Origin: Platanthera guangdongensis
Lineage: Eukaryota > Streptophyta > Magnoliopsida > Asparagales > Orchidaceae
DNA: 64,000 nucleotides
Reading direction: 5' to 3'
Assembly (NCBI GenBank): GCA_039583875.1
Contig: CM077159.1
Location: 828,812-892,811, forward strand
Translations under genes and position numbers: made by a program
Part shown: in pieces, positions 6,561 through 60,215 of the stretch
How the letters are laid out: every line of letters starts with the position of its first letter
How positions within the stretch are numbered: position 1 is the first letter of the stretch
The notes under the pieces: generated by a model
Told to the model about the DNA's origin: nothing
The model's input: only the letters and a program-made list of their open reading frames with translations
Database searches by the model: none

Positions 6561-6605
6561 TTGTCTTTATCTTTCCTCTATGTAATTTCGGGACGAAATT
6601 CTTAT

Positions 6606-6618
6606 AAGGGGGAGAGAG
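6606..6618 (+). other. Polypurine tract
   Basis: AAGGGGGAGAGAG is followed by one T and then the 3' LTR beginning TGTAACGCCCC at 6620. This is the expected site of plus-strand priming. Confidence 0.85.
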
Positions 6619-6619
6619 T

Positions 6620-14639: not shown

Positions 14640-15195
14640 CATTTCTCTAGTGGTTTATAGACTACTCAAGTAATAACTTCTGTTTATTGAGAACGATACT
14701 TAAATAAATTTCGGAAGTGATTACTGGCTTCTCGAGAAGTGACTTCTACTACTCGAGAACTATAGTAAGACATCTCAAGAACTACCACGACTTCTCAAGA
14801 ACAAGACTTCTTCTCGAAACTAAATTTCTTCTTACTCGAGTAATGGTCCTAGGACTTCTCGAGACAGGGTATGGCCTTCTCGAGTACTGGCTTCTGTTAC
14901 TCGAGTACAACACTTAGAAAATTTCTGAAATGAATTATTGAGTAAACTCGAGACATAGATAAGTAGTACTCGAGTACTCCATGGCTTACTCTAATATTGG
15001 ACTAAGCCTTCTTGAGAATGATTTCTATTACTCGAGAACTGTACTTAGTATGCTCGAGAATTCATTCTAGCACTACTCGAGTACAATAAATACTACTCGA
15101 GTAATGTACTAGGAAAATTTTACTTTCTCAAAATTATTTTCTTCAAGGTATATAATAACTATTCTTTCTTCCATTTCTTTAGTACTCGAGAATGA
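14640..15195 (-). repeat. TACTCGAGTA palindrome array in SIRE-B LTR
   Basis: About seventeen irregularly spaced CTCGAG-centred copies, many extended to ACTCGAGTA, with some TTCTCGAGAA variants. Spacing is roughly 15-40 bases, with unrelated sequence between. Confidence 0.9.
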
Positions 15196-17678: not shown

Positions 17679-18240
17679 CCGACACGGGCGTGTCGGGGGG
17701 CGTGTCAGCACTATTTTACCGCGGGATTCGGCGACCTGACGGATTTGACGGCGATTTGACTTTCCGGCCGAAAACGCGGCAGTCACGCCCCAAGTCACGG
17801 GCGTGACGGTGGGCGTGTCATTCGGCGCTTTAAGGCGATGTTGACTTCGGGATTCGCCGGCGGCAGTTTGTCGGGCGGACACGGGCGTGGCGCACATCGG
17901 ACACGGGCGTGTCCCTCTTGGGTTCGACGAACGTTGAGCGCGAAACATTAACCTGGCTGGCACGGGGCGTGTCGGGATGCCACGGGCATGTCGCACATCA
18001 GACACGGGCGTGGCCCTCTTGGGTCGACGAAAGTTGAGTTGAAATCATCAAGCGGGATGGACACGACTGGGTCACGCCCCGTGTCGGATTGACACGGGCG
18101 TGTCGGATTATGGAACACGGGCGTGTCGGGCTTTCCTCTTCAAAATTGGCCTCTTTTCGGGATTTTGAGCTGTCACGTCCTGGTCACGGGCGTGACCAAT
18201 ATGTCACGGGCGTGACATGTCATTTTTGCAGATTTTGACT
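17679..18240 (-). repeat. GACACGGGCGTGTC palindrome array in Athila LTR
   Basis: Copies of GACACGGGCGTGTC and relatives (CACGGGCGTG; GGTCACGGGCGTGACC) are spaced irregularly over 560 bases, upstream of the TATA box in the sense of transcription. The region is markedly GC-rich against an AT-rich LTR. The 5' LTR copy spans 32702-33245. Confidence 0.9.
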
Positions 18241-21914: not shown

Positions 21915-22266
21915 CTGATCCAGCGGTTTGTTAACCGAGCGGTCTGGCGGTCTATCTGGTGCCTGGAGACCGGGCGGTCTATCGGTCTACCTCTGCGGCC
22001 TGTTCTATCCTGCTGGAGTTGCCGAGCGGTTAGCCCATCTGTCTAACCGCGCGGCTATGCGGTCTCCATTATTCTAGTCCGCCGCCCAGTACTGTAAATG
22101 TTTAGTCCCACATGTGTTTGTATACTCTCTTTCTTATCTCCTCCATTCTATATAAGGGAGGCCATACCTTTGTAAATGATATCTTTATTGGATAATAAAA
22201 TTTCAATTATTCAAAAGTTTATTCGCTTGTCTTCTACTTTTCGCTTCTTTTCTCTACTTTCTAACA
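21915..22266 (+). repeat. 5' LTR of nested copia, 5'-truncated
   Basis: It starts inside the LTR at CTGATCCAGCGG and ends CTAACA just before TGGTATCAGAG (primer site from 22267). Positions 21930-22065 are rich in GCGGTCT units, including AGACCGGGCGGTCT. A TATATAAG box lies at 22149-22156. Confidence 0.9.
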
Positions 22267-30330: not shown

Positions 30331-33300
30331 TGATTGGCCCGCGAACAGACTCTTACTGTGGTTGGTTCGGTGAGTCGATCGCCGCGGGCTTGCTAGGGTA
30401 GGCAAGTGCACCTATCGCAAGTAGTACTCGATATTCGGGAGAATACCGAGGTCGTATTATTCCCGGGAACGGGTTGATTACCCCTACTCCTCCGAAAACA
30501 GTATTATTTTACCGAAATAGAAGTTGAGGGTTTTAAGTAAAATAGGAACGAAAATAGATTTTAAGAAAGTAGTCGATGAAGAGATAACTCCCGGTATCGA
30601 ATTGCGTTAGGATTAAAAATAGATTTGAATAACTAGATATCTAAAGTTTCAATTTAATTAATGCGAAAACTTGGCCGTGGAGGTTCAAAATAATGAGCTC
30701 ACCTATCTCTAGGAATATCGCTCACCTAGACATTAAGGCTATTCGACCGGGCTCTCGTCCGACGAAGGATTCCCCTTAATGCCCGCAGTACGCTAAGAAC
30801 CCCGCTATTGGGTGGGGAACCCGATCCGGTAGAGTTAGCGCGCCTCCTCTCTCGAGGGTTAGTGCGGAACTCTATCTACCCAGGGGTGATCTGTCCATAT
30901 GCACGACCTCTCGGCTAGCTAGCGTATGGATAACGGAAATAGAGCCCACACATCGATATGTGGGTCTACGCGTCGTTAACCCGGGGTAAACCTTAAGTTT
31001 TTAATTAAATTGAAAAATTAGACATTTGGTTATTTAAAACATTTTAGATCCCAAAGCTCTTCGATACCGAGGGCTAAAAGCAATTAGCCACTCATCGGAA
31101 TGGGGATAGCTTATATGTTTAGTTATGCGAGCGTCCTAAACTATTCGCTGAAAGGTTATAAAGAAAATAAGAAGAAAAGCAAAATAACCTAATTTTAGAA
31201 AAGTTGTTACAAATAAACACACCCGCACTCATTCAAACATATAATAAAAGGAAGAAATAAAACTAATTTACACATAAGAGAAAATTGCATAATTGACATT
31301 TGCAGGTCCCACTCAAACGAGTGGGGGCGAGAAATAAAAGCTGAAAAGTGCATAATTGAAATTTGCAAGTCCCACTCAAACGAGTGGGGGCGGGAAATAA
31401 AAGCTGAAAAGTGCAAGTCCTACTCAAACGAGTAGGACTGAAATGAAAGCGAGTCCTACTCAAACGAGTAGGAGAAAATAGATGAGATTACATGGCTATC
31501 TTAAATATTTACATCAAAATACAGTCCGACCATTTAACTCCTAGCGAGTAGGCGGAAAATCAAATCCAGCCATTTAACTCAAGTGAGTAGGCGGAAAAAT
31601 AAAGAATGAAAATTACAAGTCCTACTCAAACGAGTAGGACTGAAAATACAGACCGTCCATTTAACTCAAGTGAGTAGGCGGAAAAATAAAAACTACAAAC
31701 ACTTGCTTGAATCAAATCCAGCCAATTAACTCAAATGAGTAGGCGGAAAAATAAAAATTACACACGCACTCTACTTGAAAGTAACTACTCACGCACTCGA
31801 CATAAATAAACACACACACACACACTTGCATAATTTAACTTAGGAGCTGAAAAATATCTCATACACGCACACACTCGTGCTAAAATAATTGCAAAAATCA
31901 AAGTTATCGAAAAATTAAAATGACTGCATTTCTACCGCTGGAATGCAGTAGAAATGCATAAAAAGGCAAAATAAAAATTGTTTGAGCAAAAAGTTTTCAA
32001 ATTAAAGTGAGAAGGGCAAGTGCCCGAAAAATTAAAACGTTTACATTTTTACCGTTAGATTTTGATAGAAATGCTTAAAAAGTGAAAATAAAAATTGTTT
32101 GAGCGAAAATATTTTTTGTGAGTACTTAAAATGCAAGTTTATGAAAAATAAAAATGACAATTTATATATTATTATAGCCTTGTAAAATGGTTTAAAAAGA
32201 GAGAGTAAGCTAAAAAGAAGCAGTAGTTTTATAGCTAAAACAAAGTAAAAGAAGTTAAGAGGAATGAAAACTACCTTTTTTAATGTTTTACAAGTTCATA
32301 AAAGCGCATTTTGAAGCATGAAAATCCTAAGTCTAACCAAATTTAAAGAGTTAGAGAATGAAAACGGTCATAATAACGGCTATAAGTTTTGTTATATTTG
32401 GAAAGAAAACGAGAACATTTGCGTTTTAAAACATGAAAGTGTATAAGATTGAAGTAAAGGAGGCCTTTAGAGAAAATTCAGAGCATATGAGGATGAGAAA
32501 AATATCTATTTTATTAATAAAAGAAGTTGATTACAGGAGCTTAAACAAACTAAATTCAAAAAGGGGAAAAGAGAATCCTTACATAGCACTAAAGCAGCTC
32601 TAACGGTAGCCCTTATACATCAAAATGGTTCGGATTTTTGGAACCCTGAACTCATACAGCAGCTGCCTTTTTATAGGCAAAAATTTCCAAGTACACGCCC
32701 TCCGACACGGGCGTGTCGGGGGGCGTGTCAGCACTATTTTACCGCGGGATTCGGCGACCTGACGGATTTGACGGCGATTTGACTTTCCGGCCGAAAACGC
32801 GGCGGTCACGCCCCAAGTCACGGGCGTGACGGTGGGCGTGTCATTCGGCGCTTTAAGGCGATGTTGACTTCGGGATTCGCCGGCGGCAGTTTGTCGGGCG
32901 GACACGGGCGTGGCGCACATCGGACACGGGCGTGTCCCTCTTGGGTTCGACGAACGTTGAGCGCGAAACATTAACCTGGCTGGCACGGGGCATGTCGGGC
33001 TGCCACGGGCGTGTCACACATCAGACACGGGCGTGGCCCTCTTGGGTCGACGAAAGTTGAGTTGAAATCATCAAGCGGGATGGACACGGCTGGGTCACGC
33101 CCCGTGTCGGATTGACACGGGCGTGTCGGATTATGGAACACGGGCGTGTCAGGCTTTCCTCTTCAAAATTGGCCTCTTTTCGGGATTTTGAGCTGTCACG
33201 TCCTGGTCACGGGCGTGACCAATATGTCACGGGCGTGACATGTCATTTTTGCAGATTTTGACTTTTTTTCCTGACAAATAAAATAAAGCAAGTTAGTATA

Positions 33301-34009: not shown

Positions 34010-34580
34010 ATAGTACACGGGTAGAGATACGGCCGTGTCCCTACCCGTGTGTGAGTGGCCAGCTCTAGAGTCGAAGACTCGAGTATGTCTAGAGAAGGAC
34101 ACGGGTAGTGATACGGGCGTGTCACTACCCATGTGAAGTGATACAGGTAGAGACACTGGCGTGTCCTACCTGTGTGCATGTGTGTCGAGTTACACTCGAC
34201 GAGGCGTGTCGAGATCGACGAGGTGTGTCGACATTGTATGACACGGGTAGCGACACGGGCATATCCCTACCCGTGTATGTCGAGTTAAACTCGCCAGAGC
34301 ATGTCGAGATCGACGAACTACGTGTCGAGATCGACGGATTGTATGACACGGGTAGAGACACGGGCGTGTCCCTACCCGTGTGCTGTTGTGTCGAGTTGAG
34401 TTCGTCGAAAGGTATCCAGAGAAGGACACGGTCATGGAACACGACCATGTCATGTGGACACGGGTCGGGACATGGGTCGGTCCCTACCCATGTCGAGTGC
34501 TGAACCGACGTTGAAATTGTCGTTGACGCTTTGCCCGAGGCAGGACACGGGTAAGGACACTAGCATGTCCCTACCCATGT
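34010..34580 (+). repeat. Compound palindrome array in family A LTR
   Basis: ACACGGGTAG / GACACG...CGTGTC / CTACCCGTGT units nest into long inverted repeats. The best is 34346-34381, 36 bases with only one arm mismatch. Shorter TGTCGAGATCGACGA units alternate with them. Confidence 0.85.
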
Positions 34581-34589
34581 CAATTTTCC

Positions 34590-41761: not shown

Positions 41762-44040
41762 TGTAACACCCCCTATCCGTCACATAGCATATAGTAGTAG
41801 GTCCGGCCGGGGCCCGACGTCGTATGCCACAGACAGACCGGGTGGTTACTCATGGAAACCATCCAACCAATCAACGTCTTATACAGAGCATTCTAGCGGA
41901 AGCAGTTTATAAAAGTTGCAAATAAGAACCCAGCACTAAAGCATGAATGTCCACTAATCCAAAATAGGAATGTTATACAAGTACCAACATAAGCCTTAAG
42001 GCCTTACAAAATATTTCACTTGATATTACATGATTTACAAATCACGGCACGCAGGCCGGTCATACATGAATAAAATAGTAAACACTTCCAAATAGGCCTT
42101 CGAGGGCCGGCTTCGCACTTGGGCTTTAGCCCGCTATTGACCGCTTGGTCCAGCAGCACCTGCAAACAACAAACCACCGCACGGTGGCAAAACAAGGCAA
42201 CGGTCAGCAATGCTGACCAAATTATTACGATCCCGCCCCCAACTAGGGGCAGTGATGCTCCTTCCCTGCAATTCATTAGCATAAGCGATCAATATATATA
42301 ACCATTTCATCACAGACATTGGCTCGCACGGCCACACGCCCCGTGCTCTTAGGGCACATTCTCGGCGAACCGGTCGATGTCACGTCAATTAAAGCCATAG
42401 ACATTCCGGACTCACCACCGCCACTTTGACGGCCAAACCTAAGAGCAATTTGTCTTCCTGGCCTGGGTCACGACAATTTAAGCCATTGACCGCCGAAGAC
42501 CCTAATCTATGTCAACGGCAAGTGTCACGTGCCTTTAGGTCTCTTTAACCGAACGACATAGAATGGGTACGGTTCCATCTAACCCGTGCTCCCATCGTAA
42601 CGACAATTTAAGCCATTTGCGCGGGTCAAACTTCCACCGAGTCCCATTTCCATCACAATTCACATAACCCGGTTATGTTCAAGTTGGCTCTCAGGCCACC
42701 AAGTTGGCAAGATCTCGCATCCGCCCAGTTTTCCGGGTGCACCTTTGGGTTAATCCCCAAGGCTCCCTGCTGCAATCTACCGTGTAGAAAACCCGAAAAA
42801 CAACCAATAGCACGGAGTCTTCTTCGGCATTATGCAATGCAACATCACCGATCCAGACCAACATGTCCGGGTAGGCATCACATATCATGCCTATGTCCAT
42901 TCTCACTTACGGACTCTAAACAATGGGGACTTCACATATCTACCCGAAGGAACACCTCCAACTCTCCGCAAACTCGCGAGAGCGGGCTTGCGCCAAGATG
43001 AGAATCGTTACCCTAGCGTTCCTCTTTGGCGCCATGGAAAATTAAGCGAATGAAAAGCACCGCACTAGCTTTGCCTCCGTGGATCCGGAGTCGGCTCGCG
43101 ATTTGGAGCTTCGAAGCTCCTCCAATGGCCGGGTCTAGCTCCTTCTTCCTTCCTTAGCTCTCCTCTCTCTCTAAGGTTTTAGAAAGATATCCACTCATGA
43201 AAAGTGAGGGTTTCTAAGTCCAATCCCGGGTATATCCCTTCAGGAACAACCCCCAGTCGTTGGATCATCTATTAAAGAAATGAACGGCTTTGATTCGGGA
43301 CAGAAATGCACAATCTGGACCGAACATGGCCTGACACACACCCGTGTACAGGGTCGTGTGCCTCATTCGCCGTCAAAATCGGCTCGCTTGGGACAACACA
43401 CGGGTATCGAACACACCCGTGTTCGACCTGACACGCTCGTGTTCCACCTGACACGGCCGTGTGGCCGGCCGTGTACCCCCATCATTTTTCCCCAAAAACA
43501 ACCCGAGCACTGTATGGGTTCTAGGACACGCCCGTATCCTTGCCCGTGTCACCTTGACACGCCTGGGCTCCAGGCCGTGTACACGGTCTCGACACTCGAT
43601 ACACCGTCGAGCGAAGATCGTCGACCTGATGACATGGCCTTGGACACGCCCGTGTCCTAGGCCGTGTACCTTGTCTCGACATAATGTCGAGACCAAAGTG
43701 TCGACTCCCGGGATGAGTGTCGACACGGGCTGACACGCCCTGCGACACGCCCATGTCGCAGGTCGTGTGCCATGTCTCGACACTTCGTTGAACTCAGAGT
43801 GTCGCCTACGCGGGCTATGTGTCGACACTGGTCGACACGCCCTGCGACATGCCCGTGTCGCAGGCCGTGTGCCCAGTCTCGACACAATGTCGAGACCAAA
43901 GTGTCGACTCCCGGCTCAGTGTCGACACAAGCTTGACACGCCCTGGGACACGCCCGTGTCCCAGGCCGTGTGCCTGCAGCCAGAACCCAAAACTGGCCCA
44001 AAACGTCCCCCGTCGCTCCTTTGAGTTTCGGGGCGTTACA
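41762..44040 (-). repeat. LTR of Tekay-like remnant, 2279 bp
   Basis: On the plus strand it runs TGTAACACCCCC to GGGCGTTACA, the reverse of the LTR form at 6620-8704. Positions 43320-43980 hold a mixed palindrome array in which both GACACGCCCGTGTC-type and GTGTCGACAC-type units occur. Confidence 0.9.
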
Positions 44041-44692: not shown

Positions 44693-44943
44693 TCACCACA
44701 TCACCCCGTTTGATGGCCTCCTGTTGGCCAAGATTATAAATCCTTGGTTGGGCCGGAGCATAATGGGATGCGGTCGACTCCACCGCCTTTCCCTTCTCTT
44801 CATAAGTAGCTCCCGGCCTTCTCTCGGACTTAGGACGTCTGCTCCAATAGTCACGGGCAAAATGCCCTGTCTTTCCACAAGTAAAACACGCGCCCGGGGT
44901 ACGACTCGTAGTCGCCCCGGAAGCACCAGAAGGAGCTGGACCC
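44693..44943 (-). pseudogene. gag: gag C-terminal fragment of Tekay-like remnant
   Basis: The minus strand reads CFTCGKTGHFARDY, a knuckle with its last Cys changed to Tyr, then KSERR and TYEEKGKAVES, matching 2867-3050. Similarity ends at about 44943. Confidence 0.75.
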
Positions 44944-46407
44944 GCCTTGTTGGACTAAGGAGTGTTGAGCAACAGTTTGTAGAGCCTTTTTGTAGCTCTG
45001 ACTCATTCTTTTGAATACAAAGAACTGCTTCTTCTTAGCTTGCTCAGCTTCATCATCCTCAGACTCTGAGGTACTGGCTATATTCACCCTGTCCTTAGGG
45101 CTTTCAGGCCTTGCAGTCTGCACACCAGGTGCTTGCTCAGTTTCCAGCCTAATAGGCTCTTCCACAACTTCCAGATTCTCCCCCTCAACAGCAGCACCCT
45201 TTACTTCATCAGCAGCAGTCTTGTCCATGTCAAAATCTTCTTGATCTAAATTCAGAAATAGATCTTCCATTGTATATTCTAGGGGTGACTGAGCAGGAGA
45301 TGTACTGGGTACATTAACTACAGCAGATGTGTCTTGGAGAACAACATCTGGTGCTTGGTTTGCTTGCTGAGTTTGCTGATGAATATCAGACAAATCGGAA
45401 TCTATTATAGAAAAATCTAAAGTTTTGAGGTCAGAAAGTACCTCTTGGATAATGAGAGTAGCTTGCTCACTCTCCAGTGTAGAGGGTTGTTCTACAGCTG
45501 GAGGCTCCCCCTGGATGTCAGCTGGCTCTTGAGGAGCAGGTGACTTCTCTGCAGCCACATCTATTGGACTATCAGGAGTGAAAACAACATGTTCTTCACT
45601 GCCTGAGCTGCTGGAGGACTCCTGAGTCACAGCAGCAGTCTTCCTCTTCTTCCTGGGAGGAGAGTCTTTCTTTGAAACTTGCTTTTCTGGGGTTGGAACT
45701 TCTTTGGACAGCACTCTTTCCCATCTAGAGAATATCCTTGAATCCATTCTCCTCATGCGATTGATTTTAGTTCCAGCAGCAGTGCTCATTACCTCTGGAA
45801 TTGATCCAGCCAGGTAGAGACTTAGTATCCTGCCCAGATTGGGCTTCTTCAGACTTTCCTTCACTTTCTCAAATACAATCATAGACCAGTCTGTTTTGAG
45901 GTTGAAGATGATTCTGGTCATAATACTGAACATAGAGGCTGACACCCTGTCATGTCCTCCTGGTTTGCTTAGTATAACTTTGCCTACAACTTCAGACAGG
46001 AATTTGCCTTGATTATTCATTCCTTTCCTGTTGAAAACTGATCCTATTTTCATCTTAGGATCAAGACCACACCAGGTAAGTGCTTCTCTGGTCTTAGATG
46101 TGGTCACCTCCTCTTCTTCTTGAACTTTAGGTAGCTGAAGTACCTTTCTCAAGGACTTGGGTGAAATCTTGACCTTGGTGCCATGCACCCTTGACTTAAT
46201 TCTGTAGCCTGAGTCATCTACAGACGCTCCAGTAAGGAATTCAATAACTTCCTTCTTCCAAATTTTGGTTGGTTCTGAAACCAAGAACTCCAATCCTGAA
46301 TCGGTGACTAGGGTTATCACCGATTTGATTTCTTGTTCGCCGTCGTCGAATGCGCCACGCACCAGTTCATAGCCTTCGTTAACGTTCTCTTCCAGCTTGG
46401 GAGCCAT
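44851..46407 (-). CDS. Third ORF of SIRE-like element, truncated and fused to Tekay gag sequence
   Basis: ATG at 46407; 518 codons, of which about 488 belong to the copia element. The last 30 are Tekay gag DNA read in another frame. The N-terminal half (IWKKEVIEFL..., KISPKSLRKVLQLP, SEVVGKVILSKP..., NLKTDWSMIVFEKVKESL) resembles the 'putative plant transposon protein' domain often found in plant repeats; this is a recollection of family pattern, not a search. The rest is Ser/Glu/Pro-rich with a basic KKDSPPRKKRK stretch that could be a nuclear signal. Position after pol matches the extra ORF of SIRE/Maximus elements. Function unknown. Confidence 0.75.
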   Translation of the reverse strand: MAPKLEENVNEGYELVRGAFDDGEQEIKSVITLVTDSGLEFLVSEPTKIWKKEVIEFLTGASVDDSGYRIKSRVHGTKVKISPKSLRKVLQLPKVQEEEEVTTSKTREALTWCGLDPKMKIGSVFNRKGMNNQGKFLSEVVGKVILSKPGGHDRVSASMFSIMTRIIFNLKTDWSMIVFEKVKESLKKPNLGRILSLYLAGSIPEVMSTAAGTKINRMRRMDSRIFSRWERVLSKEVPTPEKQVSKKDSPPRKKRKTAAVTQESSSSSGSEEHVVFTPDSPIDVAAEKSPAPQEPADIQGEPPAVEQPSTLESEQATLIIQEVLSDLKTLDFSIIDSDLSDIHQQTQQANQAPDVVLQDTSAVVNVPSTSPAQSPLEYTMEDLFLNLDQEDFDMDKTAADEVKGAAVEGENLEVVEEPIRLETEQAPGVQTARPESPKDRVNIASTSESEDDEAEQAKKKQFFVFKRMSQSYKKALQTVAQHSLVQQGGSSSFWCFRGDYESYPGRVFYLWKDRAFCP

Positions 46408-46506
46408 TAGGGTTTGGAGAATTAGTCTTTAGAGAAGAGAAATGGCGACACAAGAGTTTTGGTCTCGAAACTTTTGAAAGCGTGTCGACAAACAAAGACA
46501 GAACCC

Positions 46507-46514
46507 TATTTATA
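46507..46514 (-). promoter_or_regulatory. TATA box upstream of third ORF
   Basis: TATAAATA on the minus strand lies about 100 bases before the ATG at 46407. The stretch between has no upstream ATG and reads like a plant 5' leader (CT-rich, ending CCAAACCCTAATG). The LTR box of the same element (52395-52402) is the same octamer. Confidence 0.6.
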
Positions 46515-46552
46515 CCTTTCTTGTTTGAAGACGAACAGGCGGGATGAATTTC

Positions 46553-46890
46553 TAAAGATGTGTCGACACTGTCAATAAGTGTCGACACTGACTTATAATG
46601 TCTCGACACACATATGTCGACACAAGTTTAGTCAACAGATTTTATGTGTCGACACTTGGTTAAGTGTCGACACCACACTACTCGACATGTAGTCGAGACT
46701 TTACTTAGAAAATTCTGAGTAAAACTTAAGTGTCGACACTACATTGGATGTGTCGACACCTACTCGACATGTGTCGACACTAACATTCTGAAGTGTCGAC
46801 ACCAGCTTCCTAGATGTGTCGACACCATTTTCCTGAAGTGTCGACACTTACTATTCTGTGTCGACATAGACTTGTCTATGTGTCGACACC
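46553..46890 (-). repeat. GTGTCGACAC palindrome array between pol and third ORF
   Basis: About eleven exact GTGTCGACAC copies plus degenerate ones, spaced about 20 bases apart, between the pol stop (46923) and the TATA box at 46507. It is the same motif as in this element's LTR. Confidence 0.95.
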
Positions 46891-46922
46891 TTTTTACTTA
46901 GCCAATTTTTAGTTCTGTAAAC

Positions 46923-49900
46923 TTAGTCTAAGTTTATCATACCTAGTTCAATTTTGAACCTATTGAACTTAGCTTCTTCTAAGGGCTTAGTAAACATATC
47001 TGCTATCTGATTATCAGTTTTAACATATTCAAGTGCAATATCATTTCTTTCTACATGCTCCCTAAGAAAGTGATATTTAATCTCAATATGTTTAGTTCTA
47101 CTATGTGATACAGGATTATTAGCTATTGAAATAGCACTTGTAGAATCACAGTAAAGTGGAGTTCTACTTACCTGAAATCCATAGTCAACTAGCTGATGTT
47201 GAATCCATAGAAGTTGAGCACAGCAACTTCCTGTAGCTACATATTCTGACTCAGCTGTGGAAATAGCCACACTAGTCTGCTTTTTACTGCTCCATGAAAT
47301 TATTCTTCCACCTAGGAATTGATAGGATCCAGTAGTGCTCTTTCTATCTTCTTTGCATCCTGCAAAGTCTGCATCTGAATAGCCTGTTAGATCAAAATCT
47401 CCATTCCTAGGGTACCAGAGGCCTAGATAAGGAGTGCCCTTTAGATATCTCAAGATTCTCTTGACTGCAGTCAAGTGAGACTCTTTAGGGCAGGCTTGAT
47501 ACCTGGCACAAACACATGTAGCATACATAATGTCAGGCCTACTTGCAGTCAAATATAGTAGGGAGCCAACTATCCCTCTATACAAGGTTTCATCTACAGG
47601 TTTCCCTGCATCATCCTTGCTTAGAGACATACTTGACCCCATAGGAGTCTTCATGGTACTGGAGGAATCCATACCATATTTCCTTATGAGTTCTAGGGTG
47701 AACTTGGACTGACATATGGATAAACCATTTTCAGTCTGTTTAACTTGGAGACCCAAGAAAAACTTCAGTTCTCCCATACTACTCATCTCAAATTGACTTT
47801 GCATAAGCTTTGCAAACTTTTTGCAAAGGCTACTTTCAGTAGACCCAAATATAATGTCATCTACATATATTTGGACAAGTATGACTTTGCCTCTAGATTC
47901 CCTAAGGAATAGAGTCTTATCTATTTTCCCCCTTGTGAACTTGTTCTCAATGAGGAAACTAGATAGGGTTTCATACCAAGCTCTAGGTGCTTGTTTTAAC
48001 CCATATAATGCTTTCCTAAGTCTATACACATAATGAGGTAAAGTTGAATCAACAAAACCTGCAGGCTGCTCCACATAGACTTCTTCTTTCAAATTACCAT
48101 TTAGGAATGCTGACTTGACATCCATTTGGTATACCTTGAATCCTTGATAGGTTGCATAGGCCAAGAACATCCTTATGGCCTCCAGTCTGGCTACTGGGGC
48201 AAAGGTTTGATCAAAATCAATACCTTCTTCTTGCCTATATCCTTTTGCAACCAGTCTTGCCTTATTCTTAATGATGACACCTTGTTCATCTAACTTGTTC
48301 CTGTAGATCCACTTTGTTCCTATCACATTGTGATCTTTAGGCTTAGGAACCAGATCCCAAACCTTGCACCTTTTGAACTGATTAAGCTCCTCCTGCATTG
48401 CTTCAGTCCACTGTGGATCTTGTATAGCTTCTTCAAATTTCTTTGGTTCTATTTGAGACAGAAAACTTGAATATACTACAGCATTCTGATTTCTGCTCCT
48501 AGTCTGAACACCTTGTCTTGGATCTCCAATGATCAGCTCTACTGGATGATCTCTTAGATGCCTGTTGGCTGGTGGCATCCTTACTTCTGGTTGAACTTCT
48601 TCAGCATCTTCATCAAGCTGAGTTCCTTGTACTTCTTCAGTTCCTGGTACATGTAGTTCTCCCCCTGGACATAAGCCATCTTCTTCTACTTGCTGTCTTG
48701 CAGCTGGTACATCTTCTATGGTAAGCTTGTCCATCTTCTTAGTAAGACCTGTGGGGCTGCACACACTACTAGACAACTCATTGTTAATTAGTTGTGACTC
48801 ATCAAAAACTACATGCACAGACTCCTCTACAACTTGAGTAGTCAAGTTGTAGACTCTATAAGCCTTACTATTATTGTTGTACCCAACAAACACTCCCTCT
48901 TGGGACTTGGCAGCAAACTTAGTTAAGTAAGACTTTCCATTGTTAAGTATGTAGCATTTACAACCAAAGATCCTAAAGTAGGATAGATTTGGTTTCCTGC
49001 CTTTCACAACTTCATAGGGGGTCTTGTTTAACCTTTTAGTGATGGTAGCCCTATTTATCACATGGCATGCAGTGTTAACTGCTTCAGCCCAGAAATATTC
49101 TGGCAGTGATGAATCACTTAATAGGGTTCTACCAGCCTCTATCAAGGTCCTATTTTTCCTTTCAGCAATGCCATTTTGCTGAGGTGTTCTAGGTGAAGAG
49201 AATTCTTGAAATATCCCATAGTCTTCACACAGCTTTGTCATGCTTTCAGACTGAAACTCAGTACCATGGTCACTTCTAATTTTGACCACTGTACAGTTCA
49301 ATTCATTCTGAATTTGCTTAACAAAACTATAGAAGACACTAGGTGTTTCAGATTTCTGCTTTAAGAAGAACACCCAGGAAAACCTTGAGTAGTCATCAAC
49401 AACTACAAAGGTGTAGACCTTCCTACCTAAGCTGTGAACTGGCATTGGACCAAATAGATCCATATGCAAGAGGTATAAACACCTCACAGCATCTTTGTTG
49501 TCTAAGCTTCTAAAGGTGGATTTAGTCAGCTTGCCCTTTTGGCAAGCTGAGCAAATGCCATCTTTGGCATACTTAACTTGAGGACCATTCCTCACTAACT
49601 CTTTGCTAAAGAGTTTGCTAATAGTCTTGTAGTTAAGATGAGCTAGCCTCTTGTGCCACTTGACACAATGAGAGACTGTCTCATCAGCTACAAGACAAAC
49701 AGGAGAACCATTGTTCTCAATCATAATGTCTAAGCAGTAGACATTCCTCTTTCTATATCCTGTCAAAATGATCTCTTGATCACTTGACCTCTTGATATGA
49801 CAACTATTTTTAACAAATGAGATGTCATACCCTACATCACTTAACTGACTTATACTAATGAGGTTGTGTTTCAACCCTTTAACATAAGCCACTTGAGTAA

Positions 49901-50075
49901 TGGTAACAAGGTTTGAAGAGATGTTACCAAACCCTTTGATGATTCCTTTTTCAGAACCACCAAAGGTCACTTTAGGACCATTTTTGATTGGAATGTAGTC
50001 CTTCAGTAGTCCCCTTGTTCCAGTCATATGTCTGGAACATCCACTATCCAAGTACCATGTAGGGGTATGGCCCAC
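46923..50075 (-). CDS. pol: Pol polyprotein of SIRE-like copia: protease, integrase, RT, RNase H
   Basis: Open for 1050 codons; the frame opens after a TGA at 50084-50082 with no ATG. Protease [10 protein letters not shown] is at residues 10-19. Integrase zinc site is H141, H146, C175, C178; the catalytic triad D206 (HMDLFGP), D269 (RSDHG), E305 (AERKNR) has the 35-residue spacing. RT (roughly 580-830) shows [24 protein letters not shown] and YVDDIIFGS. RNase H (roughly the last 150 residues) shows [18 protein letters not shown] and IADMFTKPL. The order integrase before RT defines copia. It overlaps gag in another frame. Confidence 0.95.
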
Positions 50076-51402
50076 TTGGATTCACCTGACTAGGTCCTGG
50101 CTGCTCCAGGATTTTGGTACTTTCAGTCAATGCCATCAGTCCTTGGCACTGACACTCTTCTTGTTCATAGATTGATTCCATGATCTGCATAAACTCTTCT
50201 TCTTCTTCAGCAAATAGCCCTATGTAGGCTTCAGCATCTGTCTCAGTATCTGAAGAAGAAATGTCTGAAAGAGTCTTCTCATTCTTTGCAACAAAGGACT
50301 TCTCCTTCTTTCCTTTGAAGTGAGTCTTCTTTTTGTCACTGGATTCTTTTCTTCTCTCAGGACAATCTGCAATAACATGACCCTGTCTATTGCAGCAGTA
50401 ACGCACAATCTTAGACCCAGTTGCCTTACTAGTCTTTGTCTTTTTCTTATCCTTCTTTGAAGGCTTCTTCTCCTGATACTGGACTTCTTTCCCTTTGGAA
50501 TATGAAGGTCTGGACCTCCACTGTTTCTTCTTAAGGAATTTCTGAAAATGTCTGGTGAATGCAGCAAAATCTTCATCACTTTCACTGCTTGTAGATTTAG
50601 TGCTAACAGACTCATCAGATTCTGATTCAACTACCTCTGGAGGAGGAGTTGATGACTTAGTCCTGTTCTTTCTAGGTACTTCTGACTTAAAGGCAACAGT
50701 CCTTTCCCTGTGTTCAGTCCTTGTTGACTTTTCCTCCTCTTTTCTTACTGACAATTGCATCTCATAAGATAACAACTTGCCAAACAGTGTGGGAGGAGGA
50801 ATTTCTCCCAACTTTGCCATTTCCCTTATGGCACAGATCTTGGTGTCCCAATCTTTAGTTAGGGACCTTAAGAATTTATCATTCAATTCATAGTTAGAGA
50901 ACTCTCTTCCATAGGACATGAGTTCATTAACAATTCTATAAAATTTCTTGTAGCATTCAGTGATGCTATCTCCTCTTCCTTGCCTAAAGCTCTCATATTC
51001 TTGATTAAGCAAGGACTTCCTATCTTGTCTTACTTCTTCAGAACCTTCCATGTAGACAATGAGGGTATCCCACATTTCTTTTGCTGTTTTACAGTGGATA
51101 AGGTTCTGGAAGGTGGCATCATCAATTGCACTAACTATGATGTTCTGTGCCCTTTTGTCCATTGTAGCTAGGACAATCTCATCCTTGGTCATCTCAGAAA
51201 AATCCTTTGGAGTTCTCTGTGTAGCATCCAAGACTGAAATCTTCATGGGCACATAAGGCCCTTCTTTGACTGTGATGTAGATCCTAGGGTCAGAGGCCTC
51301 CATGAACAGCCTTACCCTTTCTTTCCAGATTCCAAAAATCTCTTTTCTGCATATGGGCAGTTTCATTGAACCCAATTCCTTGTGATTCTCTGAAGACCCC
51401 AT
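50044..51402 (-). CDS. gag: Gag of SIRE-like copia
   Basis: ATG at 51402, 452 codons. The N-terminal gag core shows [52 protein letters not shown] and [23 protein letters not shown] Ser/Glu-rich linker and a basic patch follow, then a knuckle [12 protein letters not shown]. Compared with the copy at 61178-63481 it is shorter and lacks the second knuckle region. It ends TAG at 50044, 32 bases inside pol, in a frame from which pol is reached by +1. Confidence 0.95.
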
Positions 51403-51483
51403 GTTTCTTGATTTTCTTGAAACTGTTTCCTGACTTACACTGAATCTGCCAAACTGGATCTCCTCAGACAGTTAGTCCTTTTT

Positions 51484-51505
51484 GAGCAACCTGCCTCTGA
51501 TACCA
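51484..51505 (-). other. Primer binding site of SIRE-like element
   Basis: The minus strand reads TGGTATCAGAGGCAGGTTGC two bases after the LTR. It is the initiator Met-tRNA type. Confidence 0.9.
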
Positions 51506-52394
51506 CTTGAAAGATATGGTACCTAAACAACTAGAGGGGGGGGGGGTGAATAGGTGACCAAATCCTTTTTAAAACTTTGTTGGCAGCACAACAGTTTATA
51601 ACACAGATTTCTGAATAAGTTCTCACAGCAAACACAGCAATTCACAACACAGCACAATCACAGCACAGAATACACAAGATTTTATAGTGGTTCCCCAATC
51701 TTTGGGTACATCCACTTTCCCCCTTCGCCTATCTAGCAGTGTACTAGATTCGGCCAAACTTCTCCACTAGCTCAGAACCCAACTAGGTTCCTACACCTCA
51801 GGCCCAAAGCCTTACACTCAGCCAAAAGGCCTACACTCAGCCACCCAGGCCTACACTCAGCCAATTAAGGCCTACACTCAGAGTTCTTCAACTCTTACAC
51901 TCAGACAATCAAGCCCTACCCTCAGCCTTTATAATATAGGCTTACAATTCTCTCAAATCCAATGGATCCTACAAGTTAAAATAGAAATACAATAGCTAAC
52001 TCTACAACTCAGAAAATAAGAGAGAAGTTGAGAGTTTCTTGAAGAGTTCTTGGAAGAACTCAGCTAGATCCAAACTGACTTAGCTTCCCTCAAAGCTTCT
52101 TGATTAGAACTGAATTAGTCTGAATCTTCTGCAGTTGTTCCTTGACCTCTGCTTCTTGAAATCCAGATGTTTCTGAATCCTTCTTCTCAGCCTTAGTTCC
52201 AAAGACTGAATTCTTGGTTGGAGCTCTCTCTCTCCAACTTCTTAGATCTGCAGTTGAACTGACAGACCTTCTTGTGTTGATCCTCTGTGTATCACTTCTT
52301 GATTTAATTTGATCAACTACTTTAAATATTCTCTCAAGCTGTAACTCTTGTTTCTCAATCACAACTACAACTGTTTCTGTAAACTAAGGATGCC

Positions 52395-52402
52395 TATTTA
52401 TA
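52395..52402 (-). promoter_or_regulatory. TATA box of SIRE-like LTR
   Basis: TATAAATA on the minus strand lies within an inverted GCCTATTTATAGGC context. The palindrome array lies 155 or more bases upstream. Confidence 0.7.
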
Positions 52403-52556
52403 GGCTTCCTTCATGGTAACCGGCTGGTCCGGTTCATAACAAACTTCTGATTCCTCTGACAGTTGCTGTAGACCGGCTGGATCGGCAGCTGTCATGTCAA
52501 CCAGTCACTTCTTGAAATTCTCTAACTGTCAGATAGTGTCGAGACTTTCTGTTCTT

Positions 52557-53353
52557 AAGTGTCGACACTTATAGGCTAAGTGTCGACACATGTTGTGTAA
52601 GTGTCGACACAAGTCTACAAGGTGTCGACACAATTCCTTGTATGTCTTGACACAGATTCTTCTGCATGTGTCGACACTGAAATTGAGTGTCGACACAAGT
52701 ACTTGTACTTCATTCATTAACTGTATTCTTCTAAGTGTCGACACATCTCCTTTGTGTCGACACATCTTTATGTGTAGAAACTGTCAAGTGTCGACACTGC
52801 TTCTTGGTGTCGACACAAGTCTTCAATCTTGATTCTTCAGCTGAGTGTCGACACATTCCCTTAGTGTCGACACTTGTACTTAGAATATTTTGTAAACTTT
52901 TCTGTTCTTTGCTAAGTGTCGACACAGCTCCTTGTGTCGACACTTTCTTCAAGTGTAGAGTCTTCAACTAAGTGTCGACACATTGTGCTGGGTGTCGACA
53001 CTTTCTTCAAGTGTTGACTCTTCTGGTTATGTGTCGACACATTGTGTTGAGTGTCGACACTTTTACTTAGACTCTGCAGACTTTTGCTGAGTGTCGACAC
53101 AGCTCCAAGTGTCGACACTTTCTAGTGTAGACACAGCTCTTCTAGGTGTCGACACTTCTGCTAAGTGTCGACACAGCTTTTCTGCATACTTCTTCACTGA
53201 GTGTCGACACAGCTCCAAGTGTCGACACTTTCTGTCTGGTGTCGACTCTTCATCCCAGGTGTCGACACAATGACTCCAAGTGTCGACACTGCTTGTCTGG
53301 GTGTCGACACAAGCTTTCTCAAGTGTCGACACTTTCCCTCTGGGTGTCGACAC
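52557..53353 (-). repeat. GTGTCGACAC palindrome array in SIRE-like LTR
   Basis: Close to thirty exact GTGTCGACAC copies in about 800 bases, often in pairs 16-20 bases apart, with a looser 35-45-base step between pairs. Intervening sequence is partly repeated (CTTCTT, CAGCTCC). Open frames through it are repeat translations, not genes. Confidence 0.95.
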
Positions 53354-53498
53354 ATGGACTTAGAAACTTTTAGCTTCAGTCCAGTGTATACCTAACCTGC
53401 ACAAGTAACTCAAACAAACATCAAATACACTATGATGTATATCATTGAGTTAGGTGAGGCTTCTTCAAATCAGGTACATTTGACCAATGTACCCAACA

Positions 53499-54411
53499 AT
53501 TACGGAAAATACAAGTACACAACGGGGACTATTCATGTCTACCCGAAGGAACGCGTCAACTCACCGCAAACTCGCGTGAGCGGGCTTCCCTATGCAAAAG
53601 AAGTAGAGCTTCACATGCTCAAGTAGAGAACCGTTACCCTAGTGTTCTTCCTTGGTGCCATGGAAATGTAAGCGGATTAAAAGCACCGCCCTCTCCTAGC
53701 CTCCGTAGATTCGAAGTCGATTCGTGATTTGGAGCTCCGAAGCTCCGCCGGTGACCGGATCTAGAGTTCTTCTTCCTAGTTGCTCTCCTCTCTCTCTAGA
53801 ACTTAGAGAGAGAACCAATGAACAAAAGATAAGGGTTTTGGAACCCTACACTTGGGTATATCCCAATAGGAATAGCCTCCAGCCGTCGGATCCCAACATA
53901 AAGAAATGTACGGCCACGATGTAGGTCTGACATGGAAAAACTGGGCCGAAACACCGCACAGTTCACAAACCGGTGCAGGACACGTACGCGACAAACTTAA
54001 ACTGTGTCGGGACATTTAGTCAAGACCCTATCAAGACCCCTATGTCGACACTCTGTGTCGACACACTGTGTCGACACAGCACAACCTGTGTCGACACCGT
54101 GTGTGGACACAGCATAACCTGTGTCGACACTCTATGTCGACACCCTGTGTCGACACAGTACAACCTGTGTCGACACTATGTGTCGACACAACATGCCCTA
54201 TGTCGACACAGCAGGCCCTGTATCAACATAGCGGGCCCTGTGTCGACACAGTAGACCCTCTGTCAACACAGCAGACTGTGTCAAACATGCCACAACTCGC
54301 CAAGGACATGACCTATGACATGCCCGTGTCCCAGGCCATGTGACCCCTACCAAATTCCTAACCTGTCTCAAAATGCCTCCCGTCGCTCTTTTGAGTTTCC
54401 GGGCGTTACAA
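53499..54411 (-). repeat. Tekay-like LTR fragment
   Basis: Matches 42906-44040, ending GGGCGTTACA at 54411. It starts abruptly at the end of the SIRE-like LTR. Its array (54040-54290) consists of CTGTGTCGACACAG-type units rather than the GACACGGGCGTGTC-type units of the copy at 6620-8704. Confidence 0.85.
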
Positions 54412-56190
54412 TACTACCCGTAGGAAGACTATGCTCTAAGTATTGGACTGCTACCCTCAAATATACTCATGGCCATAGTTTATCTTTTTATATGTCATTC
54501 CAAATGATTTCAACATAATATAACATAATGCGCATAACTAATAGTCCACAAATTTCTAACAAGTCACTTTGTTTAAATAAGCTTGCTTCACAATTCAGTT
54601 ATATGAAATCCAATTAGTAATCTTCATCATTCATAGCACTACGGTGGTCAACATAAAATAGTTCACCAAAATCTCGAGTTAATTTGCAACATCAATTCCA
54701 CCGAATCCAAATTCATATTATATAAAAACACAGAATTTAAGTGCAAAATAAATCTGGACAGCAAATTCAACTAGAGATTACTGAAGCTACAGGAAACTGG
54801 TGAAGACGTGTAACCTATCGATGGAAAGGTCTTTCCATGGGCTACAATGTTTATGTTCAGACCACAACCCATATTCAAGAGTATCAGACTTGAAATCAGC
54901 AATGAAGTCCGCTGCGTACAGAACAAAATTTCTGCATGCAGGATTTATTGGATGTCATGCTCGTTCAAACTTTCCTGTAGATAAAACTTCGCATGAAGAC
55001 GTGCAACCACTCGTTGGGAAGTTATTTTCAAGGGCTTCTACTTTCGTGTTTAGGCGAAAGCCCAGATCTGGCCATATCACATCAGAAAATGGCTAAGACG
55101 ATTACTGCGCGCAGAACACAGATTCTACATGCATCTTAAAGAGGAATGAACGACATCGGTTCATCTTCCTCCTCGATTCGATCCTCCAAAGTCACCTCCA
55201 GAAATTCCTCCACCATTATTCACCCTCATGAGGCATTTATTCTTCACGAAGCCATCCCCCATCTTCGCATAGAAGGTTGGAGAGGTTGAAGACACAACTA
55301 GCCTTATAGCACAAGCCCAAGGATGGCCTCTTCCTAGAGAAATCACCTTCTCGCAAGTCTAGAATATTTTGAGTCAACATCTCGCCTAGATAACTACAGA
55401 TCTATCACCAAGGGAGAGGGGAGGAAGCTCACCTCATTTCCGGCGTTTCCACTATTTCCGGCCATGGATCGTGTAACTCTTCTCGGTGGCATCTTCTCCT
55501 TCATGGCGGCGGCGGATCTCCTCCTCTAGAATTATCTACAACAACTTTCTTCTCTCAATAGGAGTTTCTCTCAGAAAATAGGGGATTAAATGAGCATGAA
55601 AATGGCTAGGGTTTTCATTTCCCTTTATATATGAAAAGTGACACGGGTAGGAAAACGCCTGTGTCCTTACCCGTGTCTTGCTCGGGCGAAACGGCAACGA
55701 CGGTTTCCATGTTGATTCAATACTCAACACGGGTAGGGACACGCCCTTGTCCCGACCCGTGTCCACATGACACAACCGTGTTCCCTGGATGTGTCCTTCT
55801 CTGGATGCATTTCAACGAACTCAACTCGATACAACGGCACATGGGTAGGGACACGCCCGTGTCGCTACCCATGTCATTCAATTCGTCGATCTCGACACGT
55901 AGTTCGTCGATCTCAACACGCTCTGTCGAGTGTAACTTGACACACATGGGTAGGGACACACTTGTGTCGCTAACTGTGTCATACAATGTCGACACACCTC
56001 GTCGATCTCAACACGCCTCGTCGGGTTCAACTCGACACAACGGCACACAGGTAGGGACACGCCCGTGTCTCTACCCGTATCATACAATTCGTCGATCTCG
56101 ACACGCAGTTCGTTGATCTAGACAAGTAGTTTGTCGATCTCGACACACACATGGGTAGGGACACGCCCGTGTCTCTACCTGTGTCACTAC
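54412..56190 (-). repeat. Family A-like LTR fragment
   Basis: Reverse-oriented relative of about 34110-35815. It keeps the transcribed part, a minus-strand TATATAAA at 55624-55631 and a compound palindrome array at 55633-56190 upstream of it. Both ends are abrupt: a Tekay LTR edge on the left and another LTR (TGATG) on the right. Confidence 0.85.
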
Positions 56191-57753
56191 TGATGTTAAA
56201 GATCACGATAGTGAACCGGTCGCACAAGTAATATAAAGTGGGTGAGTTTTCCCAAGTATCGATCTCTCAAGGAACACAGCAAGATGGAGATAATTTCGAG
56301 GAGAACTTGAGATTGAAGTCCTTAGGTCGGAGTTAACTAAGGGGGTTTTGATATTTGCGGAAAAAGGAAGTAAAAATCGAACAACTACTCCTATGCACTG
56401 CCGTTATGCGATGCTTCGCCATGCGGGATGGAAGACTAGTCGGGCCGCTATACACCGAATCACTAGGCGGATGGGCGAGTAGGCTTGCAGATGAGGTGAT
56501 GAGAATGACAGAATGAGGGTCATGAGCACCTCTTCGCTACGCATGCCACTAGCAATTGTTAGTGCGGCAAGGGCAGATGGATGGTGGATGAAATATGGCA
56601 CACCTCAAACAACTATAGCGTAAAATAATACAGAATCACATAGACATGAATCTAATAAAGTTTACATCTAAAGTGCAACAACATCAATATAAATGAAGTT
56701 TTAACACACATACAAAAATAAAGGAAGAACAAGTCAAGAGATCGACTGAATCCGAAGTCTTGCTAAGGATTCACGGTTGGAATCGTCGGGTTGTCAATCC
56801 GCGTCCAAGCTCGGTCCTCAACTGCGTCCGGGGTAGAGAAGGGCAGTCACCACCTTCCAATGGGCCGTCTTCTTCGTGTCACGATAGCGGACGAAAGTTG
56901 AAAGCTTCACTTTGCTTGATGGCTATGTCGTTGAAGCTTGAAATGAACCCAAGAGATGATGGAGGAGGCCGAGAGGAAGCTCTGGCTTGGATTTGGAGGT
57001 GAAAGCTTGCCCGGAGCACCTCTCTAGGGTGGAAGATGATGAAAAATAGCGGAGAAGGCGGAAAACGGCGGAGAAATGTCGAGCGGTCCAAAGATTCCGA
57101 ATTAGGGCAAGACCTACGATATTTATACAAAGCAGAGTTGAACAATGCGCACGATCACTGGCGCACGACCAGTGGTCGTGCGCACTATGTCCAGTGATCG
57201 TGCACACTGGCATGACAGATTAGGAAGAAGAACTGGGATAACGCACACGAGCAGTGGCGCACGACCACTGGTCGTGCACACTAAGTTCAATGGTCATGCG
57301 ATTACCCCAGACAGGACTCCAGGAAAAGAGGAATCAATGCACACGATCAGTTGCGCACGACCAGTGGTCATGCGCACTATGTCCAGTGGTCGTGCGATTA
57401 CCCCAGGCAGATTTTGGAAATCAGGGTACATTACGCACGATCATCGGCGCATGTCCAGTGGTCATGCACACTATATCCGATGAGCGTGCGCAGTATTCCT
57501 GCTTCCAAACATCCCCGAAACACACACACGACCCCTAAACCCCGCATTGATATGTGCAGACATTCCAAGCAATCACAAAATGGAGTACAAATAATAAAAG
57601 TACAAAAATACACAACCACGGGCCAAAGTGTGCACTTCCTATGGAATTATAGACAAGATGAAATATGAACGATATAGAACTAAAAGTGAAGTGCAAACGC
57701 GTGAAAACTAGCCTAGATGAGTCAGAAAAACCTTATATAAATCGGACTCATCA
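56191..57753 (-). repeat. Gypsy LTR, Athila/Tat-like, 1563 bp
   Basis: TGATG...CATCA with a polypurine-like tract just outside at 57754. Its U5 end (GTGAACCGGTCGCAC, TTTTCCCAAGTATCGATC) resembles Athila/Tat LTRs. TATAAATA is at 57120-57127 (minus). No partner LTR is present in the window. Confidence 0.65.
57145..57500 (-). repeat. Palindrome array in Athila/Tat-like LTR
   Basis: Units of CGCACGACCA and TGGTCGTGCG form inverted pairs. The best is 57161-57183, 23 bases and palindromic except at its centre. Several diverged copies (GATCGTGC, CAGTGGTCATGCG) follow up to 57500. Confidence 0.85.
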
Positions 57754-59104: not shown

Positions 59105-59449
59105 TGTTGGGTATTGTATCCACACTAACCCAGATTTGATGAAGTCACCCGTAAACTAAGATGAATTAAGTTGTATTTGATTCTTGGTTTGAGTTATGTG
59201 TTTGCAGGATTCTAATGGGAAGTGTAGACCAATGTCAGTCTACAATGGGTCACCAAATACAAGACCATACAATGTAATCCCTCATTATGTGTTCCAAAGT
59301 ATTGACTCATGTGTAGCCTCTCTATTGGGATACACTTCATATTCAATCTCTAGGACTATGTGAAAAGACTTGATGTTGATTTCCCTTAGAAGAAAAAAAT
59401 CTGCCAGCAACTTTTTTCCTAAGTAAAGTAATCGAGTACCTTCTTAATT

Positions 59450-60215
59450 ACTCAAGTAAGTTACTGAGTTTATACTCGAGCAGTAATTCACTTACTCGAG
59501 TTGTTAAGATGTACTCGAGTAGTCCAAATATGGCTCTCGAGTAATTCATCTTGTATACTCGAGTAATTTCCTCTTATCTCTCGAGTTTTCAGATTTTCTC
59601 TTCTCAAATTTGTCTAAGTGAAATACTCGAGTAGTATTATATATACTCGAGTAGTTCTATCTTCTATCTCGAGTAAATTGTATTCTGACTCTCATGTAGT
59701 TCCTACTTACTTGATTAGTCTAAATCATATACTCGAGTAGTTCATCTACTACTCGAGTAGTCAAATGCTTTTACTCGTGTAATCCAGAATTCTATTCCAG
59801 AAAAACTTCACTAAGTGAATTACTCGAGTGGTTCATGTTATATACTCGAGTAGATCATTCTGTCTCGAGTAGTTCATGTTACATACTCGAGTAGTTCAAT
59901 TTTTCATGTTCCATAAATTTTCTACGTGTTTGTCTCGAGTAGTCTCTTATATACTCAAGTAGTGCATTTCTATATACTCGAGTAGTACTTCTTGAACTCG
60001 AGTAATATACTCCACCTCTCGTGTAAGTACTTAAGTACTCGAGTAAGTCATTTTTGTTACTCGAGTAACTGAGTTCCTCCAATTCTTATTTACTCGAGTA
60101 GTTGACTCCATGTACTCGAGTAATGATTTCTTTTTCTCCCGAGTAAGTTTTCTCATGTACTCGAGTAGTCACTTTCTACCTACTCGAGTAGTCCTGCTTG
60201 ACTCGAGTAATTTAC
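59450..60215 (+). repeat. TACTCGAGTA palindrome array in SIRE-B2 LTR
   Basis: More than twenty ACTCGAGTA copies, about half extended to TACTCGAGTA. Variants include CTCGTGTA and CTCAAGTA. Spacing is roughly 20-30 bases, directly upstream of the TATA box. Confidence 0.95.

Follow-up and report, generated by a model that had tools for sequence, protein, structure and literature searches.

Palindromic box arrays upstream of TATA boxes in LTR retrotransposons of Platanthera guangdongensis, and a Sirevirus-like family nearly devoid of CpG outside its candidate promoters

The closest described counterparts of the arrays reported here are the RM boxes of Sireviruses, which are palindromic, occur at high copy number in the upper half of the LTR upstream of the TATA box, form CpG islands, and are accompanied by further RM boxes that precede the envelope-like gene (Bousios et al. 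2010, PMC2829016). A role in regulation was proposed in that report, the available text of which states that an internal promoter was not conclusively found and that no common binding factor was found. Maize Sirevirus LTRs likewise contain a palindrome-rich cis-region (Bousios et al. 2016, as described in PMC5311732 and PMC10760457), which the available accounts discuss as a small-RNA hotspot and a variable region, while the boxes described below are conserved relative to their spacers. A single maize palindrome is reported to rank first among motifs of structured regions, in copia elements as well as in Helitrons (PMC10760457), indicating that sharing across superfamilies has already been reported. 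Among gypsy elements, the CpG islands of Del/Tekay (Cruz et al. 2014, PMC4029996) are similar in forming a 5' CpG-rich, length-variable LTR stretch; in contrast to our arrays, the accessible text does not mention palindromes, and its eudicot Del elements are without a CpG island. Finally, the VANC targets of VANDAL elements (PMC5735166, PMC10398659) resemble our arrays as dense assemblies of a short, family-specific motif in several non-coding regions, but VANDAL is a DNA transposon, its element-encoded binder is known, and the motif is not described as palindromic in the available text of PMC5735166.

We analyzed a 64,000-nucleotide window (C13:828812-892811, forward strand) of the P. guangdongensis genome (4.25 Gb, 274 contigs), most of which is filled by nested LTR retrotransposon DNA. 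Like the RM boxes, the palindrome arrays of 2 Sirevirus-like families, hereafter family A (SIRE-A) and family B (SIRE-B and SIRE-B2), are located upstream of the LTR TATA box as well as before an extra ORF. In contrast to the RM boxes, the main boxes of both families are centered on TCGA and are without the CGG-CCG core, although Tnd-1 in PMC2829016 lacks this core too; in family A the core is represented only by 2 CGG..CCG-type boxes near the TATA box. Whereas the text of PMC2829016 presents the boxes as specific to Sireviruses relative to classic Ty1/copia elements, here gypsy LTRs share the layout. Thus, the palindrome-array layout was largely known for Sireviruses already (PMC2829016). New here are the abundance and spacing of the boxes, the second arrays bearing each family's own motif in A and B, the comparison of boxes with spacers, and the near absence of CpG from family A.

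The Sirevirus, Athila and chromovirus labels are provisional, deriving from the initial annotation, similarity of the ORFs and several Pfam matches. The SIRE-A 5' LTR array (52536..53354, minus strand) contains 35 boxes of the GTGTCGACAC type, 29 of them exact, at distances of mostly ~18-22 bp. Between this array and the TATA box (CCTATAAATAGG; 52393..52404, minus strand) lie the 2 CGG..CCG-type boxes (52415..52490, minus strand), namely AACCGGACCAGCCGGTT, which is present in locus L011 too, and a degenerate one. Family B is represented by SIRE-B (14640..15195, minus strand; 13 TACTCGAGTA boxes, 5 exact; TATA at 14518) and SIRE-B2 (59425..60215, plus strand; 30 TACTCGAGTA boxes, 15 exact; TATA at 60335). 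The gypsy LTRs bear an Athila array of GACACGGGCGTGTC-type boxes (17679..18240, minus strand; TATA at 17646), long hairpin-capable boxes in the chromovirus-type LTR that the initial annotation called Family A (34010..34580, plus strand; TATA at 34589), and an Athila/Tat-like array with the odd-centered box GCGCACGACCAGTGGTCGTGCGC (57145..57500, minus strand; TATA near 57120). A nested copia element possesses at most 4 ACCGnGCGGT-like sites, identified by eye, at 21930..22065 (plus strand), upstream of a TATA box at 22148. At 34010-34580, 43330-44000 and 55640-56180, the arms of the gypsy GACACGGGCGTGTC sites stay complementary while their sequence varies between sites, in the manner of a hairpin.

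The initial annotation had proposed that these 7 LTRs of unrelated families share an array of CG-centered palindromes just upstream of the TATA box. An array upstream of TATA in the proposed orientation was found in 7/7, with a TATA pattern matched in 6/7 and the TATA box near 57120 read by eye; since SIRE-B and SIRE-B2 share a motif and align, the 7 LTRs represent fewer families. We compared palindrome density with 200 dinucleotide shuffles of each stretch, and 8 control stretches gave z scores of -0.4 to 1.7. Enrichment was clear for SIRE-A (z 13.9), SIRE-B (z 5.9) and SIRE-B2 (z 7.8), moderate for the Athila LTR (z 3.7; 1/200 shuffles as high), and marginal for the annotation's Family A (z 2.3; 8/200) and the Athila/Tat-like LTR (z 2.6; 6/200), but palindromes in the nested copia stretch (21930..22065) were at chance level (z 0.6; 67/200). 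Two stretches with diverged boxes, 6640-7250 (z -0.3) and 1-300 (z 0.0), showed no palindrome enrichment. Arrays beyond the original 7 were found at 46440-46890, which is internal to SIRE-A and discussed below; in another Athila LTR at 32700-33265 (TATA at 32669; z 3.9); in a reverse copy of the annotation's Family A at 55640-56180 (z 2.2); and in 2 chromovirus-type LTRs on the minus strand, one mixing GACACGGGCGTGTC and GTGTCGACAC in a unit of ~100 bp (43330..44000; z 5.4) and the other bearing 14 GTGTCGACAC boxes (8 exact) at a spacing of 13/20 (53990..54290; z 9.5). Downstream of these last 2 arrays, just a weak TATA-like string was seen by eye.

The proposed CG center held for the TCGA-centered main boxes of SIRE-A, SIRE-B and SIRE-B2, but not for the remaining LTRs of the 7; both the GACACGGGCGTGTC box shared by Athila and the annotation's Family A and the nested copia box contain a GG spacer. 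The view that unrelated families share motifs was borne out, with GTGTCGACAC occurring in copia and chromovirus-type LTRs, and GACACGGGCGTGTC in Athila and chromovirus-type LTRs, a sharing that could reflect either convergence or exchange. A recurring position relative to the TATA box, likewise proposed, was observed in the Sirevirus-like families but was not general elsewhere. Of 8 loci surveyed, only L008 and L011 displayed a TATA pattern no more than 300 bp from an array, while none was found in L001, L005, L006, L007 (which overlaps L006), L016 or L021. L001, which represents another context and yielded no TATA box, entered only this survey; L007, together with L002-L004, which overlap L001, was removed before counts. 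In another set of LTRs, the pattern was found in L035 and L036, and not in L037, whose piece may end too early. Taken together, these results support array-TATA adjacency well for families A and B only.

In SIRE-A, the order on the minus strand is LTR, gag, pol, a second GTGTCGACAC array, TATA box and an extra ORF that starts at 46407. The gag ORF (50044..51402) matches PF14223, as expected for a copia-type gag (E 8.4e-21), and contains 1 CpG, while the pol ORF (46923..50075) contains 0; a family B gag fragment matches the same Pfam family at E 1.1e-5 and 25.4 bits, slightly under the 27-bit cut-off. Between pol and the extra ORF, the second array (46440..46890) contains 17 boxes (11 exact; z 6.5) and adjoins a TATA box, GGTATAAATAGGG, at 46504..46516, all on the minus strand. 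This arrangement of array, TATA box and extra ORF recurs in L011 and L030. The extra ORF (44851..46407, minus strand) encodes 518 aa in the window, where nested gypsy DNA apparently cuts it, and 947 aa in L011. It matched PF20167 (Transposase_32) weakly, under the cut-off, and no convincing relative was found among solved structures (best E 0.93); a single-sequence fold prediction of its first 230 residues gave a mean pLDDT of 37. An extra ORF of sunflower Athila is reported to match the PF20167 family (PMC11728184).

Family B repeats its own motif, TACTCGAGTA, ahead of its extra ORF. In L029, pol ends directly before the middle array, as judged by eye, and an open frame follows; TACTCGAGTA sites at C1:6279291-6279891, 6286438-6286679 and 6289867-6290467 belong to this family. 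Boxes of the RM type thus precede an extra, putatively envelope-like ORF in both family A (46440-46890, L011, L030) and family B (L029), and the LTR and internal arrays have a motif in common within each family, while the motifs of A and B differ. Across C1:6279291-6299706, family B arrays run in the order LTR-internal-LTR-internal-LTR, with the first 2 LTR arrays and both internal arrays repeating at ~10.58 kb, an order that recombination between elements could leave. A string taken to represent the polyC-rich integrase signal, CACCCCCCTC, was found in L016 only, 1 of 8 sequences searched.

The boxes are abundant genome-wide. Exact GTGTCGACAC occurs in 2,076,908 copies compared to 2,228 for its reversed control, TACTCGAGTA in 263,017 compared to 7,045, and GACACGGGCGTGTC in 176,758 + 177,813 compared to 2 + 2. 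A sample totalling 200 kb, taken from 1-2 Mb of 20 contigs, contained GTGTCGACAC in 3/20 stretches (17 copies), below the number predicted from the genome-wide average, indicating that the motif is distributed unevenly along chromosomes. We counted exact GTGTCGACAC pairs genome-wide in 2 distance bins, and found 939,392 at 18-22 bp versus 23,525 at 28-32 bp. Among 235 neighbor distances in ten arrays of families A and B, a set that includes related copies, 175 were 18-24 bp and 9 were 25-35 bp; of the remainder, 33 were 36-52 bp, 8 were shorter and 10 were longer. Families A and B therefore differ in motif and agree in box distance. This period of ~20 bp fits 2 helical turns, although tandem duplication can produce it too. 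At C1:18192409-18192561, copies of GTGTCGACAC follow one another closely in tandem, with a 14-bp unit, which may represent a young satellite-like array.

The initial annotation had suggested asking whether palindromes decay at the same rate as spacers. In the LTRs of both Sirevirus-like families, the boxes outlasted their spacers, which supports function. Four comparisons among 3 SIRE-A elements gave 8/350 differences in boxes versus 53/453 in spacers, 6/350 versus 49/465, 6/350 versus 49/465, and 9/360 versus 48/546, corresponding to 1.7-2.5% versus 8.8-11.7% (p 7e-5 to 1.5e-7; 8.5e-4 to 3.7e-7 with another box marking). The corresponding values in 3 SIRE-B comparisons were 16/288 versus 71/286 (p 4.6e-11), 30/243 versus 54/246 and 18/192 versus 49/220, or 5.6-12.3% versus 22.0-24.8% (p 0.021 to 1.7e-8 with the other marking). 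These comparisons re-use sequences (3 elements in each family), and the alignment of arrays may inflate spacer divergence. Protection of the LTR boxes of both families persisted when CpG positions were left out. L036 and L037, which are apparently the 2 LTRs of one element and are ~1% apart, showed 5/360 differences in boxes and 5/551 in spacers (p 0.53), indicating, on small numbers, that boxes are not intrinsically less mutable.

Box protection was less uniform elsewhere. Internal arrays of family A displayed it between the window and L011 (p 0.011) and between the window and L030 (p 0.001), and not between the window and L031 (p 0.16) or L030 and L011 (p 0.53); at non-CpG positions, only one of these 4 comparisons (window-L030) was below 0.05. 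Boxes compared with sequence beyond the array differed significantly in 4/8 comparisons, neither of the 2 internal comparisons being among these. In the chromovirus-type family, protection was weak or absent: GGGC-type boxes had 13/126 variable columns versus 75/412 in spacers (p 0.04), GTGTCGACAC boxes showed no conservation (28/140 variable), and with both types pooled, none of 6 pairs showed a difference between boxes and spacers. The Athila LTR pair had 1 of 7 array substitutions in boxes (140/562 bp), too few to judge.

Family A was also nearly devoid of CpG outside its arrays and their surroundings. Its gag-pol region in the window (46900-51402) contains 1 CpG in 4.5 kb, where base composition predicts 175, and pol uses zero codons containing CpG. 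All 31 CpGs of the LTR array are located within boxes, leaving 0 in spacers compared to 13 expected. Depletion is milder in the extra ORF (22 versus 80 expected) and absent from the internal-array spacers (6 versus 7.2 expected). Across 45101-53490, a span that omits the terminal part of the extra ORF, where nested gypsy DNA adjoins (44851-45100; 9 CpGs), 48 of 74 CpGs lie in GTGTCGACAC boxes and 20 beside the 2 promoters, 4 of these in the CGG..CCG-type boxes by the LTR TATA box and 16 around the putative internal promoter and the beginning of the ORF (46302-46765). The other non-box CpGs, which bring their number to 26, comprise 2 between gag and the LTR TATA box, 1 in gag and 3 deeper in the extra ORF. 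The 2 in the gag-TATA interval, 51726 and 51751, have counterparts at equivalent positions in L011 (9311 and 9336), which suggests a required site.

Other copies agreed with this picture. The pol side of L011 has 4 CpGs versus 249 expected, L032 and L033 have 0 versus 58 and 60, and L031 has all 22 of its CpGs at positions 14-431, the internal promoter stretch, with 0 in its pol part. A diverged relative in L016 has 0 CpG in 3.25 kb (4250-7500) and 25 CpGs in 250 bp of an array with another motif, TCGTCGA/TCGACGA; a separate LTR fragment with GTGTCGACAC adjoins it. Arrays of these half-sites in this CpG-poor Sirevirus-like element occupy L016:3920-4200 and 8620-8790, one of them apparently within an ORF across pol, on its other side. 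Other elements had CpG observed/expected ratios of 0.51 (SIRE-B2), 1.29 (Athila pol) and 0.77 (chromovirus-type). Within the window and 20 sample stretches, runs of at least 3 500-bp steps with a ratio below 0.1 were confined to the window element, L011 and L016, and shorter low-CpG runs were seen near 12001 in the window and in L013, L023 and L027.

Conserved boxes upstream of 2 TATA boxes, phased at ~20-21 bp, identical in motif within a family and different between families, point to a dimer bound to DNA. We therefore consider it reasonably probable that the arrays serve as promoter boxes recognized by a dimeric factor with sequence-specific DNA binding, probably of the host, and that CpG elsewhere in family A was selected against. 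Such a factor would bind the array sites as upstream promoter elements. Each Sirevirus-like family would use one family-specific site twice, once in the LTR U3, to drive genomic RNA, and once ahead of the extra, putatively envelope-like ORF, with binding sites ~2 helical turns apart, and the bound dimer would activate both promoters. In family A, selection would have removed nearly all CpG outside promoters, CpG being presumably costly since CG methylation is heritable.

Boxes of this kind could instead be bound by a protein of the element itself, such as the product of the extra ORF, that counteracts silencing as VANC does, motif and protein changing together between families. The use of one motif per family in both non-coding control regions, with A and B differing, agrees with this idea, as do the dense tandem arrays of VANC-target motifs in several non-coding regions per element (PMC5735166) and the survival of CpG chiefly at sites that such a protein would occupy. 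However, boxes persist in Sireviruses without env (PMC2829016, Table 3), chromovirus-type LTRs carry the same 10-mer GTGTCGACAC, and the extra ORF has only its sub-threshold PF20167 match and no convincing structural relative, and we regard an element-encoded binder as unlikely. We consider somewhat less likely still that the palindromes act as RNA, with hairpins that feed small RNAs into host silencing or serve dimerization or packaging. Two array pieces do fold far better than shuffles (z -11 and -10), gypsy-type units form strong hairpins of -10 to -32 kcal/mol (the unit of the annotation's Family A in an idealized symmetric form), the arms on either side of GACACGGGCGTGTC complement each other (245 pairs versus 146.5 permuted, 0/2000 as high, at 48 window sites that include some related copies), and maize Sirevirus palindromes are reported as small-RNA hotspots (PMC5311732, PMC10760457). 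Single SIRE boxes, in contrast, are poor hairpins (-2.3 and -1.1 kcal/mol), pairing alone needs neither a ~20-bp spacing nor a TATA box beside both SIRE-A arrays, and a source of silencing small RNAs would be a cost, leaving conservation unexplained. RNA hairpins are thus a fair rival for gypsy-type boxes, and less so for single SIRE boxes. Neutral expansion of a tandem repeat by slippage, with recent homogenization mimicking conservation, might account for the ~58 bp duplicated units seen by eye in the SIRE-A array, but homogenization would have copied spacers as well, yet spacers differ, and the same motif occupies 2 separate places within one element; we judge this explanation very improbable. 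An insertion-site preference for palindromes was rejected, because the available account of such preferences concerns ~5-6 nt at target sites (PMC6911290).

The scarcity of CpG in family A could reflect mutational decay of methylated CpG, the boxes being spared because bound protein keeps them unmethylated. Consistent with decay, TG+CA is raised in gag-pol (1.25), and the half-depleted SIRE-B acquires new CpGs at slightly below the level given by random placement (13 versus 19.9, a value equally low in 19/500 runs). Copies of the decayed box GTGTTGACAC are few, 104,938 (reversed control 18,987) against 2,076,908 intact, a count that is uncalibrated against the non-CpG transition control GTATCGACAC. 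In contrast to these observations, 393 gag-pol substitutions between the window and L011 created 0 new CpGs in L011, compared to 36.5 +/- 5.1 by random placement (0/500), and 305 substitutions to the ~29% diverged L016 relative created 0 compared to 22.4 (0/500), while the chromovirus-type control gave 10 versus 10.0. Two near-identical copies were uninformative, with 0 versus 1.2 expected each. Decay would also have to run more than ~100-fold faster at CpG, by a hand estimate, and LTR box conservation holds at non-CpG positions too. Third codon positions of pol differ by 13.5% between the window and L011 and second positions by 2.4%, indicating that the frame was under constraint, although the L011 pol frame is broken today. 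Retention of CpG mainly at promoters and the lack of newly made CpG favor selection acting against CpG over decay alone, and we view decay as an unlikely explanation. We tentatively propose that selection may have cleared CpG from the functional lineages of family A and of at least one relative diverged by ~29% (L016), so that the element bodies would be unable to hold heritable CG methylation; CpG would be kept mainly at factor-binding sites, chiefly the boxes of the 2 promoters, and evasion of silencing may lie behind their large numbers.

No near-total loss of CpG of this kind was found in the available passages of PMC2829016, the main text of which is without words starting with deplet, deamin or methylat. 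A search of open-licence literature likewise returned no report of a plant LTR element nearly free of CpG, which is no proof of absence; one or more of 4 motif strings occur in 1,174 papers, and the 40 matches listed appear, judging by title, to concern cloning or primers, with GACACGGGCGTGTC in none of these 40. For the Sirevirus boxes, sequence now provides a test of selection, a spacing rule and matched motifs at 2 places per element. The GTGTCGACAC 10-mer makes up ~0.5% of the 4.25-Gb genome, and any host factor that binds it would therefore meet an enormous sink of sites. An element with almost no CpG outside its promoters would represent a natural experiment in escape from heritable CG methylation through loss of CpG.
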